Shown here piece after piece: positions 21,657-27,586 of a DNA stretch of 34,468 nt. Positions within the stretch are counted from its first letter, which is position 1. Each line of letters begins with the position of its first letter. The notes under the pieces are model-generated. The model ran no database searches. It saw only the letters and a program-made list of their open reading frames with translations, and was not told where the DNA came from. Source of the DNA: a virus; the IMG/VR virus record IMGVR_UViG_3300042539_001795, positions 1 through 34,468 of that record. The stretch is one strand, 5' to 3'. The position numbers were made by a program, and so were the translations under genes.

Positions 21657-22101
21657 TGATTTGAGCTGTAAACGGAATGCTGCCGACCTGCCAGCGATGA
21701 AGGCGGCGCCCCGGGATGTTGGTTTGAACCGCGTCAAGCACTGAGTTTAAGCTGACTTGGATGTTGACCTCATCCCAGCCGCCGCTAGAGCAGGTGCCCC
21801 AGTAGGTGTAAAGGGTGCGCTGGACTGCTCCAGTGGAGGGTTCCCAGAGCACCGTGGTGACCTTGGCAACCCATAGGTTATCGAGAGCCTCGACAATCCA
21901 CGCGCGGGTCATTTCAATGTTTGCAAATTGAATTGTGGCGTCGAGGTTGTCGCCTTGGAGCGTGGCTACCGCTCCACCAAAACTGAACGGCAGAAACAAG
22001 TAGCCGTCTACGTTTTGGTTGATCGCGTAGTTCTGAAAGCGGTATTGGGCGGCTTGGCCGCTGGGGCCGATGTCGAGCAGGTGGCCGTAGGCGTATTCCA
22101 T
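21649..22101 (-). CDS. minor tail protein (gpL/DUF1833-like)
   Basis: A 150-residue protein with MEYAYGHLLDIGPSGQAAQY, then LFLPFSFGGAVATLQGDNLD, NIEMTRAWIVEALDNLWVAK and IQVSLNSVLDAVQTNIPGRR. The order tape measure - this gene - NlpC/P60 - J-like matches the lambda H-M-L-K-J order, and the 'VSLNSVLDAVQTNIPGRRLHR' end is typical of the gpL/DUF1833 group. It builds the distal tail hub. Its start overlaps the tape measure stop by one base. Confidence 0.75.
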   Translation of the reverse strand: MEYAYGHLLDIGPSGQAAQYRFQNYAINQNVDGYLFLPFSFGGAVATLQGDNLDATIQFANIEMTRAWIVEALDNLWVAKVTTVLWEPSTGAVQRTLYTYWGTCSSGGWDEVNIQVSLNSVLDAVQTNIPGRRLHRWQVGSIPFTAQISV

Positions 22102-25100
22102 CAGACTCCAACAGAACGGCGGGTGGCGGCGCTGTTTTTCAGGCTGCGCATGGCGCGGCGTTCGCCTTGGATGGCGCCCTGTTGGGCAGCGTGTGCCATG
22201 CCGGCTCTGAACTGGTCAGCTGTAACGTAGTCCACATTGTTGATGCGTTCCACGCTGTAGCGGACGTCGATGGGCGCCATCGGGGCTGTTGCTGTACCGC
22301 CGCTTTCGCTGCTGGAGCCGCTGCCGGCAATGACGGATTCGCCACGGGCGCCACGCGAGTAGCGGGACATGGCGGCCGACATTTTCGACTGCGGGATGAC
22401 GTATTCCGGCTCACCGCCTTCTCCGATCAAAGCGCGAGTGGGACCAGTTACAAAACCACCTTCGGCAAAAGCTCCTCCCGCAAACATGGGGCCGTTCGAT
22501 AAAGCCCCGGTGCCTGTCAAACCTGGAAGACTCATATCGCTAGCAGCAAAACCAAGAGGATTTAGTAAACGTTGAAGTAATTGAATTGCTTGTAATTTTA
22601 GTGCTTCGGCCGCAATACGCGCTGCCATGTCAATAAAATAATCTCCGACACTCTTGAAGAAGTTAGATAGTCCTTCTCTAGCAGTCATTGCACCAGAAAC
22701 AATACCTTTGAAGGATGCAGAAAAAGCGTCGCCTATGGCGGTAGCTGCGCCGATAATTTGATTTGTTGGGTCGGTTAAAGCGGTTATATTTTCTTGTATT
22801 TCTTTTATGGCGTCCGGTAGTCGCATATCAAAGATTTCGCGCATACCGGTGTCGTCCCATGTAATGCCACCACGCAAGTCATCTAAGGTGTTTTTTACTG
22901 CTTCGTCTATGTCACGAGCAAGCTCACGCAACTCGTCGTCACGCTGTAGTTGCGCATCTTTTAAGCGTACAATTTCTTGCGCACGTATTACAGTTTTTTC
23001 TGTTTCGTAGTTTGCATTAAGTAGGGCTTTAGCTGTATCACGGTTAATGTCCGCAACTTTTTGGTCGTATTCCAAGCGAATTGCTAGCTCTTTATTGCCT
23101 TCGAAAAGTGCGTCGCGTATGCCGTCTTGGGTGACGGACATAAGCTTCATAGCTTCAAGATCTTCACGGAGTAAGGCCGTGCGATCTTCGGGCGGTTTTG
23201 GTCCTTTTTTACCGGCACCACCCGTAGGGCCGAATTCGCTTGGTACCGTGAACGATTGGACTGGTGTGCCAGGGCGTGGTATTCCGGCAGGCCAGTTTGC
23301 GCCATCCATTCCGGCGTTCAGGTTTAGCGATGTTGCTAAACCACCCCTATTTTTTCCCGCTCCTGCAAGTCGCGCTATGTTTGATAGAACTGTGTAAGTA
23401 GCGCTAAGTCCGGGAATCATATTTGATATTGCTGTAGCCACAACTTGGATAGTTCCCGGTATAGCGTAAAAAGCACTAGCAAATTTAACACCGAGTTCTA
23501 CAACGTAAACGCCTAGTGAAATAACTTTACCGGTAATCTCAGCCAACTTAACTACTGCGGGTGTAATCGCTAAAACTATGCGCTCAAAGGCTGTAGTAGC
23601 GGTATTTTGAATACTGATAAAGCTATTATTTATGCCTGTAGTTGCGTTTGTAAATGCGTTACTCATTGCAGTCGCAGCTTCTTCGTAGCTACTCCTGACT
23701 TTTGTAGCTCCTGCGGTGCCTGCGTTGGCTACCTCGACAAGAGTGTCGATCAAACTTTGGACGGATATTTCACCGTCTTTAGCCATTTTCAAGATTTCGG
23801 ACCTGCTTACTTTGTACTTATCTGCTAGTGCTTGTTGGATATTTATGCCTTGACTTGTGAGTTGGTTAAGAGTTGCTTGGGTTACTTTTCCGGATTCCAG
23901 TGCGCTGGTGATTGAGTTGCCGGTTTTTTCGAATGACCCACCGTATGCTTCTGTGAGACGGGTTACGAGCTGGATTGCTTTTGCCTGATCTTCAAGGGCT
24001 AAGCCAACACCACGGATATTTTGAATAACAGCGGTAAATTTATCTACATCGGTATTTGCAACCTTAAAGGCGTCGGAAAGTTGCTTTGTTTGTTGAGTAG
24101 AAAAGCCGATGTCCTCACCAAGCTGTTTTATAGCTTGACCTTTAGAAGCAATCTCACCTAAAAGTGTGCCGAGCAGCGAACCAGCGAAGCTACCGCCGGG
24201 ACCTGCAAGACCACCAACTAGACCGCCGATGGCGCCACCGGCTGCTGCTCCACCGCTTTGGCCGAACAGTAGAGGGAATGCACCGCCGATAATGCTGCCG
24301 CTAATAGCTCCACCGATACGTCCGCCAACACCTCCACCACTTCTAGATGCTGCTGCTGTTGGAGGTAGAGCGGGACCTTGAACACCAAAGCCAGCATTTT
24401 GTATGAGCTGCCTTCGAGCAGCCTCGCTCGCTAAGCGTTGACGTGCTGCAACACTAGCCGCGCCCTCTCTACTCCGAATAGCCGATACTTCCTTTGCAAT
24501 CTGTAGTTCACGTTCTCGTGCAAGATTGAGGCTTTCTTGCGCTCGTTTAGCGTCTGCAATAGCGACAGCAGAGTTTTGATCAAGTCGCTGTAAGTTGGCC
24601 GCCAAACCTACCAGTTGCTGCCTTGTAGCAGCCATTCGCTGCAAAATTTGCTGTTTCTGTGCTGCTGTACGAAGACCCTCTTGTTCCGCTGCTGTCATAG
24701 GTAAGGCAACGGGGAAACCCATTGCCCCTGCTCCAGCTAACGGTCCTTGCATTAACGTGCCTGATTTCCCGGCAAGGAAACTGGCTCGTTGCTGTTGCCG
24801 AGCCAGTAATTCATATACTTCTTGGGTACCTCGAACAAGATTTTGCTGGCTTTGAACTTTTTCGTTCAGGACCGCAGCACTTTTTTCTTCTAGTCGCAGT
24901 AATGCTGCTTGAAGTGCAGCCTCATCTTGTTTACTTTGAATAATGCTTCGAACACGTTCTGCTACTGGGGATGTTTGTCCTACTAATGTGTTAACCGCTG
25001 ATGCTGGTCCAGGGCCAATAGGTCCAGCATATTGAGTGGTGCCAGCTAAAAATTTTTCTTTCTTTCGTTCGGCTTGTAGTGCTACGGACGCAGCTTTTTG

Positions 25101-25631
25101 GTCCAAAGTAGCGTTTGTTTCCAAACGCCTTCTTTCTTCTAATGTTGCTAAAACTTCTTCTAGCTCTTTAGCACCTTTTCTTTCGGCCAGTATTTGCTCG
25201 GTGCGTCCACGTAATTGAGAGGATAGTGCGACAGGAGAAGCTTGACCTGGACCGATGGGGCCACCGTATTGTGTAGTCTCTTTTATACCAGCAGCCGCAA
25301 GCTTTGCTTTACGCTCTTGTTCAGTAATTTGTTTGAGTAGTTCAGCTCTCTCGCGTAAACCAGTGTTTAGTTGATCAGTTACTCGTACATAATCTCGTGC
25401 AGCATCTGTTGCTTCTTTAGTCCCTAGCGCTACATCATTAAAACTATCCGCAGCGTTCGCAACAAGTCTGCTTAAATTATTAATGCTGCGTGGTATACCG
25501 CCTTCACTTAATGTTTGAATATCTCTATTCAAACGATCTACTGCTTGAGCGCTTTTATCTAATTGGGTTTGGAGGCCCTGAAGCTCTCGTGCGCCTCTAA
25601 CAGCAATTTGGATTTCAGCTAAATACGCCAC
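22101..25631 (-). CDS. tape measure protein
   Basis: A 1176-residue tape measure protein, GTG start. The first half is long helical sequence with repeated blocks (three copies of 'TTQYGGPIGPGQASPV' or close variants). A Gly/Ala-rich hydrophobic stretch follows (IGGAISGSIIGGAFPLLFGQ...), then the conserved tape-measure domain around TSQGINIQQALADKYKVSRS and EISVQSLIDTLVEVAN. The C-terminal part has FAEGGFVTGPTRALIGEGGE and PEYVIPQSKM, a common ending. At about 0.15 nm per residue the tail would be near 175 nm (inference). The hydrophobic stretch may cross the host membrane during DNA entry. A terminator lies just upstream. Confidence 0.92.
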   Translation of the reverse strand: MAYLAEIQIAVRGARELQGLQTQLDKSAQAVDRLNRDIQTLSEGGIPRSINNLSRLVANAADSFNDVALGTKEATDAARDYVRVTDQLNTGLRERAELLKQITEQERKAKLAAAGIKETTQYGGPIGPGQASPVALSSQLRGRTEQILAERKGAKELEEVLATLEERRRLETNATLDQKAASVALQAERKKEKFLAGTTQYAGPIGPGPASAVNTLVGQTSPVAERVRSIIQSKQDEAALQAALLRLEEKSAAVLNEKVQSQQNLVRGTQEVYELLARQQQRASFLAGKSGTLMQGPLAGAGAMGFPVALPMTAAEQEGLRTAAQKQQILQRMAATRQQLVGLAANLQRLDQNSAVAIADAKRAQESLNLARERELQIAKEVSAIRSREGAASVAARQRLASEAARRQLIQNAGFGVQGPALPPTAAASRSGGGVGGRIGGAISGSIIGGAFPLLFGQSGGAAAGGAIGGLVGGLAGPGGSFAGSLLGTLLGEIASKGQAIKQLGEDIGFSTQQTKQLSDAFKVANTDVDKFTAVIQNIRGVGLALEDQAKAIQLVTRLTEAYGGSFEKTGNSITSALESGKVTQATLNQLTSQGINIQQALADKYKVSRSEILKMAKDGEISVQSLIDTLVEVANAGTAGATKVRSSYEEAATAMSNAFTNATTGINNSFISIQNTATTAFERIVLAITPAVVKLAEITGKVISLGVYVVELGVKFASAFYAIPGTIQVVATAISNMIPGLSATYTVLSNIARLAGAGKNRGGLATSLNLNAGMDGANWPAGIPRPGTPVQSFTVPSEFGPTGGAGKKGPKPPEDRTALLREDLEAMKLMSVTQDGIRDALFEGNKELAIRLEYDQKVADINRDTAKALLNANYETEKTVIRAQEIVRLKDAQLQRDDELRELARDIDEAVKNTLDDLRGGITWDDTGMREIFDMRLPDAIKEIQENITALTDPTNQIIGAATAIGDAFSASFKGIVSGAMTAREGLSNFFKSVGDYFIDMAARIAAEALKLQAIQLLQRLLNPLGFAASDMSLPGLTGTGALSNGPMFAGGAFAEGGFVTGPTRALIGEGGEPEYVIPQSKMSAAMSRYSRGARGESVIAGSGSSSESGGTATAPMAPIDVRYSVERINNVDYVTADQFRAGMAHAAQQGAIQGERRAMRSLKNSAATRRSVGV

Positions 25632-25667: not shown

Positions 25668-25693
25668 AAAAAAGCCGCCGGGTTAGCGGCGGC
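25668..25693 (-). terminator. intrinsic terminator before the tape measure gene
   Basis: GCCGCCG at 25674-25680 pairs with CGGCGGC at 25687-25693 around a 6-base loop, and six A at 25668-25673 give six T on the minus strand after the stem. This is a complete intrinsic terminator for minus-strand transcripts coming from the major tail and chaperone genes. The TAA stop of the frameshifted chaperone (25683-25685) lies in the loop. Confidence 0.8.
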
Positions 25694-26209
25694 GTTTGGC
25701 CTTGTCCATCTCCTTTTGCTGGTCTTCGTTCAGGATTTGGAAGTAGGCGCTCCAGCCGAGTAGTTCTTCGGCGGTCATTGAGGTCCGAACTTCGGTGAGG
25801 GTTAGGCCCAGCTCCTTGGCAACGCCGAATTGGAGCATGAGCCAGTTGTCCTTGCGGAGTTCGGCGCTCAGGATTTTGGGTCGATGGGCTCGGCGTCGTC
25901 GGTCAGGATCGCCAGCATCAGAGCTTGAAGGTCTTTGTCCTTGACTTCGTTCTTTAGGACGTCCACTTCGCCGACGCTGAAGAGTTTGGCGCCGGATTCG
26001 TCGAGGGCCTTGGCGATCAACAGTTGGAGTGCGAAGGCGTTGGCGTCGTCGGACTTGGCTTGTTTCTGGGCGCGTTCGCGCTCAGCCATCGTCAGCGGTG
26101 CCACCCACATTTCAAATGTGCTGCCGTCGGACAGGTCTACTACTTTTTTGACTGGCTCCAGGTTGGCGGCCTTGCGGAGACGGTCGATTGCGCGTACAGG
26201 AACGGGCAT
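25683..26209 (-). CDS. tail assembly chaperone, long form by -1 frameshift
   Basis: A fusion of the 113-residue chaperone frame with a second frame read after a -1 slip at C-CCA-AAA (25874-25880). I translated the -1 frame by hand: it is open for 63 codons, begins ILSAELRKDNWLMLQF after the slip, and ends LGWSAYFQILNEDQQKEMDK followed by basic residues. Total about 175 residues. This is the arrangement of lambda gpG/gpGT and many siphoviruses: the long form binds the tape measure and recruits tube subunits and is not in the virion. The gene lies exactly between the major tail protein and tape measure genes. The 'GWSAYFQIL' segment is typical of the T part. Confidence 0.87.
25868..26209 (-). 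CDS. tail assembly chaperone, short form
   Basis: The unshifted product, 113 residues: MPVPVRAIDRLRKAANLEPV, KKVVDLSDGSTFEMWVAPLT, MAERERAQKQAKSDDANAFA and a helical acidic C-terminus ending EPIDPKS. The middle 'F.MWVAPLTMAERERA' is what I expect of the gpG-like chaperones of siphoviruses. It would help tail tube polymerisation on the tape measure protein. No Shine-Dalgarno is evident. It follows a terminator, so its mRNA comes from read-through or from a nearby promoter I cannot place. Confidence 0.85.
   Translation of the reverse strand: MPVPVRAIDRLRKAANLEPVKKVVDLSDGSTFEMWVAPLTMAERERAQKQAKSDDANAFALQLLIAKALDESGAKLFSVGEVDVLKNEVKDKDLQALMLAILTDDAEPIDPKS
25874..25880 (-). promoter_or_regulatory. 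-1 programmed frameshift site C-CCA-AAA
   Basis: On the coding (minus) strand the heptamer reads CCCAAAA with frame C-CCA-AAA, which fits the X-XXY-YYZ rule for -1 slippage. It is placed two codons before the zero-frame TGA. The -1 frame continues open for 63 codons into a chaperone-type C-terminus. Confidence 0.85.
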
Positions 26210-26305: not shown

Positions 26306-27079
26306 TCAGGCTGCGGTGCTGAAATCGAAGGTCGGGGTGCCAGCAGGGCGGAAGTTGACGGTCACCGATTGGGCGTCGTCGGGGTTGATGTTCAGGCTGG
26401 CCGAAGTCAGTACTGCATCGAAGGCAATCGAGCGGCTCAGGGTTTCGCTCAGGGTGCCGCCGCTGAATACGCGGTCGGTGTAGAGCTTGAAGGCGGCGCC
26501 AGTCTGTTGGCGCTGGAGCACGTCCTCGATCATGCGGTTGGACAGGGCGGCATCCTCATTGGTCATGTAGACCGTTGCGGTGCCGGTGCCATCGCCGAAG
26601 CCGCTGATGTAGCTGCGGAAGGGCACGTACTGGCCGGGGGTTTGGCCGATGGTGGTGACGTCGATCTCAGCGCGGCTGATTTCGAAGCTCCAGTCGCGGA
26701 CTTGACCGACAACGGCAAAGTCGGCGTAAGAAACCTCGAACTCGTTGGGGGCAGCAGCGGTACCTGTGGTCGTCAGATCCACTGCAGCACCGCCAGCGGT
26801 GGCGGAAACTTTCAGCACACCCGAGCTAGCGGTGTAGGCAATCACGTAATACGTGGTGCCTGCAGTAAGACCAGCGGGCAGAGTGCCGGTGCCGGCACCG
26901 CCGGTTTGGCTATTTACCACGCTGAACTTGACGGGATCGCCGATTTTGAAGTTCAGGAACGGCGCAACAGTGATTTCTTCGTTGGCTGTGCTGACTCCGG
27001 CGGTACCGAAGGTGCCGGTGGTGCCGGCGGGCTTGTAGTAGAGGGCGCCGGACGTGCCGGACAGAACGGTGGTGGCCAT
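26306..27079 (-). CDS. major tail (tube) protein
   Basis: A 257-residue protein (ATG 27079; a TTG at 27091 would add four residues). The tube fold is seen in the flanks: MATTVLSGTSGALYYKPAGT and, from about residue 127, VGQVRDWSFEISRAEIDVTT, FRSYISGFGDGTGTATVYM and LTSASLNINPDDAQSVTVNF. Residues about 40-115 are an inserted beta domain (FKIGDPVKFSVV... TTYYVIAYTASSGVLKVSAT) that likely decorates the tube surface. It is the highest-copy tail component, fitting its own terminator directly downstream. It lies between tail terminator and chaperone genes, the standard position. Confidence 0.87.
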   Translation of the reverse strand: MATTVLSGTSGALYYKPAGTTGTFGTAGVSTANEEITVAPFLNFKIGDPVKFSVVNSQTGGAGTGTLPAGLTAGTTYYVIAYTASSGVLKVSATAGGAAVDLTTTGTAAAPNEFEVSYADFAVVGQVRDWSFEISRAEIDVTTIGQTPGQYVPFRSYISGFGDGTGTATVYMTNEDAALSNRMIEDVLQRQQTGAAFKLYTDRVFSGGTLSETLSRSIAFDAVLTSASLNINPDDAQSVTVNFRPAGTPTFDFSTAA

Positions 27080-27099
27080 AGGGCGTACCAAGTGGACGT

Positions 27100-27154: not shown

Positions 27155-27586
27155 CTATGACAACACAGTCGCTACGTAGGAAGTTTCGATGCGTCCCATG
27201 AAATGGGGAGATTCTTCCGTAGTAGAAAATGTTGGGCCGTTAATCTCACCGACTTTGAAATAAACACCGCTAGTGCTTTTTGTACTGTTGTTGATGGTTT
27301 CCAGTACGTTTACGGCAGTCGTTAGCAAAGTTTGGTTGCGGGCTGGGCCTTTGCCTTTTTCTGTGAAAATGCGGATGACAACTGCACCACGAGCGTTGTC
27401 CACGCTGGAGGTAAGAGTGGGTTCGTTGGTAATGCCGAAAGTAACATTGACGCGGACGTATTCAGTGGTTGTGTTGGGTGGGACGGCCGTGATGTTGTCG
27501 AAGTAAACCGGTACTGCTGGTACCAGGGCGCCAAATGCTGTAAGCAGTGGATTTTCGACGGCGGCGCGGATGGCTTGGTAGTTCAT
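27155..27586 (-). CDS. tail terminator / completion protein
   Basis: A 143-residue protein: MNYQAIRAAVENPLLTAFGA, then VPVYFDNITAVPPNTTTEYV, RVNVTFGITNEP, a VVIRIFTEKGKG strand and a helix TLLTTAVNVLETINN. This fits the DUF4128/gpU group of proteins, which cap the tube at the head side. It sits between the gp10-like connector and the major tail gene, the expected place. Its start overlaps the upstream stop (ATGA). Confidence 0.75.
   Translation of the reverse strand: MNYQAIRAAVENPLLTAFGALVPAVPVYFDNITAVPPNTTTEYVRVNVTFGITNEPTLTSSVDNARGAVVIRIFTEKGKGPARNQTLLTTAVNVLETINNSTKSTSGVYFKVGEINGPTFSTTEESPHFMGRIETSYVATVLS

Follow-up and report, generated by a model that had tools for sequence, protein, structure and literature searches.

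A probable programmed -1 ribosomal frameshift at C CCA AAA in a gpG/gpGT-type tail assembly chaperone, within a protein family comprising a +1 clade

Introduction

In a viral stretch of 34,468 nt (IMG/VR record IMGVR_UViG_3300042539_001795; hereafter the window, i.e., the whole stretch of DNA analysed), the gene located between those of the major tail protein and the tape measure protein almost certainly encodes a tail assembly chaperone of the lambda gpG/gpGT type, whose long form would be produced by programmed -1 ribosomal frameshifting at the slip word C CCA AAA. As such, the device is ordinary and widely known among phages, its slip word being uncommon, and the GenBank relatives examined carry no frameshift annotation. 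The frameshift of lambda gpG/gpGT was reportedly studied by Levin et al. in 1993 and by Xu, Hendrix and Duda in 2004, 2013 and 2014. It has been reviewed together with a cited product ratio of 30:1 (PMC5009743), and an efficiency of 6-7% was measured in two HK97-like chaperone genes (PMC3711429). Respective to CCCAAAA as the slip word of a tail chaperone, nothing was found in the open-access literature, where the text matches correspond to ribosome-binding sites or primers.

The slip site and its conservation in close relatives

The zero-frame gene terminates with the codons GAC CCA AAA TCC TGA on the minus strand, with CCCAAAA in the phase C CCA AAA one codon ahead of the stop (Table 1). In the -1 frame, 65 codons are open when CCC AAA are included, down to a TAA at 25685-25683 on the same strand. 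The coordinates and frames proposed in the first-pass annotation for the gene, the heptamer and the end of the extension are all correct, and the 63 codons it attributed to the extension are the right count past the heptamer. Only eight in-phase words of the form X XXY YYZ (Y being A or T) occur in the minus-strand genes examined in the window (7,639 codons); of these, CCCAAAA alone lies close to a stop (at 10 nt) and alone has a -1 extension exceeding 46 codons. After base shuffling of the extension, 13% of the versions still remained open for 65 codons, so that the open frame by itself is weak evidence.

Table 1. Features of the window (positions on the stretch) and extensions of the related +1 clade (positions on the respective loci)
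Feature	Position	Strand	Basis
gpG-like tail assembly chaperone, zero-frame gene, 113 aa	25868..26209	-	ORF, PHROG matches, AlphaFold/Foldseek
Slippery heptamer C CCA AAA	25874..25880	-	Fixed codons in relatives
Zero-frame stop TGA, 10 nt from first heptamer base to stop	25868..25870	-	Position invariant in 80 relatives
T-like -1 extension, 65 codons + TAA, fusion of 175 aa	25683..25880	-	PHROG matches, periodicity
Reduced synonymous diversity, possible cis-acting element	25833..25894	-	Observed/expected ratio, permutation
Major tail (tube) protein, upstream neighbour	26306..27091	-	phrog_158 E 6.5e-4
Tape measure protein, downstream neighbour, 1176 aa, GTG start	22101..25631	-	Pfam TMP_3 E 2e-12
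Tail terminator (neck/tail module context)	27155..27586	-	Phage_tail_terminator_5 E 6e-8; phrog_179 E 3e-13
+1 extensions	L199 1501-1695; L205 1546-1740; further loci L287-L445

Using the extension as a query, 80 loci were retrieved from IMG/VR, nearly all at 88-100% identity, and 553 relatives were confirmed overall. All 80 of these loci keep the heptamer CCCAAA(A/G/C), the +10 position of the zero-frame stop and an extension of 65 codons, and in none of them is the extension interrupted by a stop in the -1 frame, a finding that the first-pass annotation would have counted against the frameshift. With the window included (81 loci), the heptamer reads CCCAAAA in 71 cases, CCCAAAG in eight and CCCAAAC in two, where weaker A-site re-pairing is expected, which counts against a tandem slip. 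In six loci (L041, L048, L050, L052, L053 and L081), a -1-frame TGA stands immediately 5' of CCC (gaTTGACCC or similar) and a ribosome making the fusion must thus change frame within CCCAAANNNN, i.e., ten bases from CCC through to the zero-frame stop.

Codon statistics were drawn from 43 representatives, each at less than 95% identity. The GAC and CCA codons at the slip site are each present in 43/43 of them, CCA accounts for 30 of the 133 other Pro codons of the same genes, and the Pro codon three positions 5' of the slip site varies between CCC, CCA and CCG. The place of the zero-frame stop is constant and its identity is TGA in 39 representatives, TAA in three and TAG in one. Diversity at codon positions 1/2/3 amounts to 0.093/0.029/0.291 upstream in the zero frame and to 0.065/0.032/0.291 downstream in the -1 frame; the triplet periodicity changes from the zero to the -1 frame at the slip site and, judging from the substitution pattern, both halves of the chaperone gene are under purifying selection. 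Together with the in-phase heptamer, the comparison across the 80 relatives bears out the initial assignment of the shift site to C CCA AAA and, at the level of sequence, is the decisive evidence that the frameshift site is real.

Identity of the products and gene neighbourhood

Against the PHROGs, the zero-frame product matches phrog_20784 (E 5e-32; function not annotated) and, weakly, PHROG 344 "tail assembly chaperone" (E 4.5e-4), the latter being matched at about 1e-5 in L199 and in phage S-2L. The families matched by the chaperone of the window are also matched in all clades tested. An AlphaFold model built from 32 aligned zero-frame proteins was of low confidence (mean pLDDT 60.6); for this model, the top two Foldseek hits were both chains of the HK97 tail assembly chaperone 2ob9 (probability 1.00, E 1.1e-3 and 1.4e-3), followed by YqbN (3klu). 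VIA-align returned Z 7.6 and 6.7, two small proteins (5ir0, 3fgx) and then a drop to 2.7, the comparison of the zero-frame model with 2ob9 giving Z 7.6 over 103 residues at 16% identity. The PHROG 344 match and the low-confidence fold moderately suggest that the zero-frame product is related to known tail assembly chaperones. As for the extension, it matches phrog_26456 of unknown function (E 8.5e-7) as well as the tail proteins phrog_337 (E 3e-5) and phrog_14766 (E 3e-4), in keeping with the tail-chaperone-like C-terminus initially noticed. The gpG-type identity put forward at the outset is likewise favoured by PHROG 344, the folds 2ob9 and 3klu, and the location of the gene, flanked by those of the tail tube and the tape measure.

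In Pfam, no family matched either half. The match of the fusion to RNA_pol_A_bac was weak and under the cut-off of that family, and phmmer against the PDB matched only protein A constructs, with E values no better than 0.016; both were discarded as chance. A DNA-level search of phage records gave no match. The closest relatives of the portal and chaperone are cyanophages, and the tape measure protein matches Synechococcus phages only, so that the host is likely a cyanobacterium, as far as such relatedness can indicate.

Slip words and slip direction across the family

The nearest cultured phages are cyanophages, in which other slip words occur at the same place. In KBS-S-2A, the word is A AAA AAC followed at once by TAA, and the extension (L082 4321-4503) has no annotated gene. 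In S-H1, the site reads A AAA AAC GAC TGA and the extension (L083 3354-3539) is annotated as a separate, later-starting downstream CDS. In S-2L, the slip word is C CCA AAG. The slip word varies among contigs of the KBS-like clade (A AAA AAA, A AAA AAC or C CCA AAA), and many of these contigs have a -1 frame that begins exactly at this word or one codon earlier, which leaves 13 nt with the stop counted in; in the S-H1-like clade, A AAA AAC or A AAA AAA is followed by GAY TRA. While the heptamer varies, its place and phase are constant, which argues for compensation by another slip word. Loss of the heptamer without replacement, a point raised in the first-pass annotation, was thus encountered in a single cultured lineage, the heptamer being otherwise kept or swapped for an in-phase slippery word. 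This exception is Prochlorococcus phage MED4-184 (L085 2989-3004), where the two frames overlap by 16 nt with no canonical heptamer; the one obvious candidate there, perhaps in use, is slippage of a single tRNA at A AAG. In one contig (L096, around 1498-1510), C CCA AAA AAC TGA presents the overlapping in-phase words C CCA AAA and A AAA AAC right before TGA, and may plausibly represent an evolutionary intermediate between both heptamers.

A large and mostly marine related clade possesses the same chaperone and extension, the latter being in the +1 frame at AAA AGN TRA (Table 1). This arrangement was first found in the marine virus AG-345-A17 (L086 3341-3532) and in contigs L199-L206. Two further scans added 159 loci, and 164 were analysed, among which 161 exhibit the +1 arrangement; the three others are a true -1 member (L365), a locus cut by the contig end (L413) and a calling artefact (L289), whose extension is the same as that of L199. 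Over the 161 loci, the site reads AAA AGC TRA (122), AAA AGT TRA (21), AAA AGA TAA (2) or AAA AGC AAA/GAA TAA (16), and the overlap of the frames is just 8 nt in 139. The Lys codon at the site is AAA in 148/148 parsed loci, with AAG at 389 of the 1,564 other Lys codons there. Since the extension opens at AAA and the zero frame closes after AGN, full re-pairing is possible only if tRNALys slips forward by one base; such a slip, from AAA to AAA on AAAA, would account for all +1 loci.

A tree built from 51 fused proteins places the +1 sequences together on one side of a branch with strong support (100/99). With midpoint rooting, the +1 clade is flanked by the side of the window and KBS and by that of S-H1, the branches being long and the root not fixed. 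The presence of +1 and -1 clades in this tree requires at least one switch of direction and, given the long branches and the root, it gives no ancestral direction. It is very probable, then, that the direction of frameshifting has switched within one chaperone family (PHROG 20784 plus 26456), namely between -1 at heptamers, as in the clades of the window and of S-H1, and +1 at AAA AGN TRA, as in the mostly marine clade. No description of a switch of direction inside one recognisable tail-chaperone family was found in the open-access literature.

Possible stimulators around the slip site

Around the slip site, synonymous diversity dips to about 0.28-0.45 of the expected value (Table 1), compared with about 0.6-0.9 in most other parts, with a permutation p of about 0.03-0.04 that is indicative only, the representatives being related. 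This dip has its centre at the slip site and speaks in favour of the frameshift. A further synonymous dip is found near codons 35-46 of the extension. Respective to RNA folding, the 121-nt MFE in the window has a z of -3.4 and the 110 nt downstream fold with a mean z of -2.3 compared with shuffles in 24 relatives, whereas the 60 nt downstream are not more stable than shuffles. In 28 relatives, pair counts revealed no covariation beyond shuffles or slid partners, and RNAalifold gave ten pairs with a compensatory change in none. With a stem devoid of covariation, a structural stimulator is not claimed. Upstream, no clear Shine-Dalgarno-like stimulator was seen in the window clade which, like the stem devoid of covariation, counts against the frameshift, although downstream stem-loops or pseudoknots and upstream Shine-Dalgarno stimulators are frequent but not universal in gpG/gpGT-type chaperones. 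Within the KBS-like clade, the A AAA AAA branch (L098-L152) exhibits a Shine-Dalgarno-like GAGGTGG or GAGGTTG about 8 nt 5' of AAAAAAATAA.

Alternative explanations

A sequencing or assembly error, or the decay of a gene broken by an indel, could be suspected from the way the -1 frame picks up immediately and encodes the remainder of the domain, as expected from an error of a single base. Nonetheless, an identical split, heptamer and stop position recur in 80 independent contigs, the split is present in differing form in cultured phages, an in-frame fusion was found in 0 of about 450 loci examined and purifying selection bears on both halves; ruled out by the relatives, this explanation is vanishingly improbable. 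A separate gene, with its own initiation or with reinitiation past the zero-frame stop, is how the extension appears in the S-H1 annotation, and an ATG does exist at codon 14 of the extension in the window. The conserved extension residues PKxLSAELRKDNW are nevertheless encoded upstream of this ATG, in many loci of the KBS lineage just 10 nt of the -1 frame precede the zero-frame stop and no start codon is present, and the fixed CCA AAN codons would be left without explanation, which makes a separate gene very unlikely.

The slippage could also be transcriptional rather than ribosomal, and runs of seven to eight A at the site in related clades make polymerase slippage possible there. Transcriptional slippage usually needs runs of about eight or more A or T. 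In the literature, the runs concerned are described as An with n > 7 (PMC3711429). At the site, neither the window nor any of its 80 nearest relatives exceeds four A and three C, and with only four consecutive A in the window such slippage is extremely unlikely; besides, it gives no role to the phase-specific CCC of X XXY YYZ.

Proposed mechanism and significance

With programmed ribosomal frameshifting as the preferred reading, most ribosomes would complete the 113-aa chaperone, while in a minority, at C CCA AAA, both the P-site tRNAPro and the A-site tRNALys would re-pair one base back, from CCA AAA to CCC AAA, presumably by tandem slippage as in lambda. The slipped ribosome would exit the zero frame three bases ahead of TGA and produce the 175-aa fusion with its 65-residue C-terminal domain. 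In vivo, this presumably happens in the phage considered here. By analogy with lambda, the short form would act as a chaperone that coats the tape measure protein, and tail-tube subunits would be recruited by the T-like tail present in the long form, so that the slip rate would set the ratio of both forms. In chaperones of the gpG/gpGT type, both products are made, with the long one in the minority; neither is present in the virion, and they are required for tail length.

From these results, the PHROG families 20784 and 26456, so far of unknown function, gain a joint identity and a mechanism, and records are corrected such as those of KBS-S-2A, where the extension is missing, and S-H1, where it appears as a separate gene. 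Follow-up is mainly deserved by the wider family, in which slip words change and one branch uses +1. It represents a natural experiment, where -1 slips on several heptamers and, in a related clade, a +1 slip yield one and the same two-part chaperone, and where flanking stops pin the slip to 8-10 nt. It thereby allows asking whether the direction and word of the slip track the tRNA set of the host; no tRNA gene was found in the window.

Comparison with known systems

Compared with lambda gpG/gpGT, where the slip word is G GGA AAG, the window has C CCA AAA and its zero-frame stop comes after one codon; in Pfam, no sequence similarity to lambda gpG/gpT is detectable. The nearest solved fold to the zero-frame product, as judged from a low-confidence model (pLDDT 61), is that of the HK97 tail assembly chaperone gp13 (2ob9). 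A Shine-Dalgarno-like element 5' of the slip word is likewise known from dnaX, which resembles in this respect the A AAA AAA branch but not the window clade. In KBS-S-2A, CPKG_00058 and the extension are homologous to both halves of the chaperone of the window, with 61% over the fusion, the extension being also in the -1 frame and abutting the zero-frame stop; the difference lies in A AAA AAC with TAA directly after it in place of C CCA AAA. Among unrelated tail chaperones, the direction is known to differ, the frameshift being -2 in Mu (cited in PMC2628397) and +1 in the haloarchaeal virus HSTV-2 (PMC5009743, PMC8211752). Both have the same gene position and purpose but a direction differing from the -1 of the window, and the relevant comparison for them is the +1 clade rather than the window itself.
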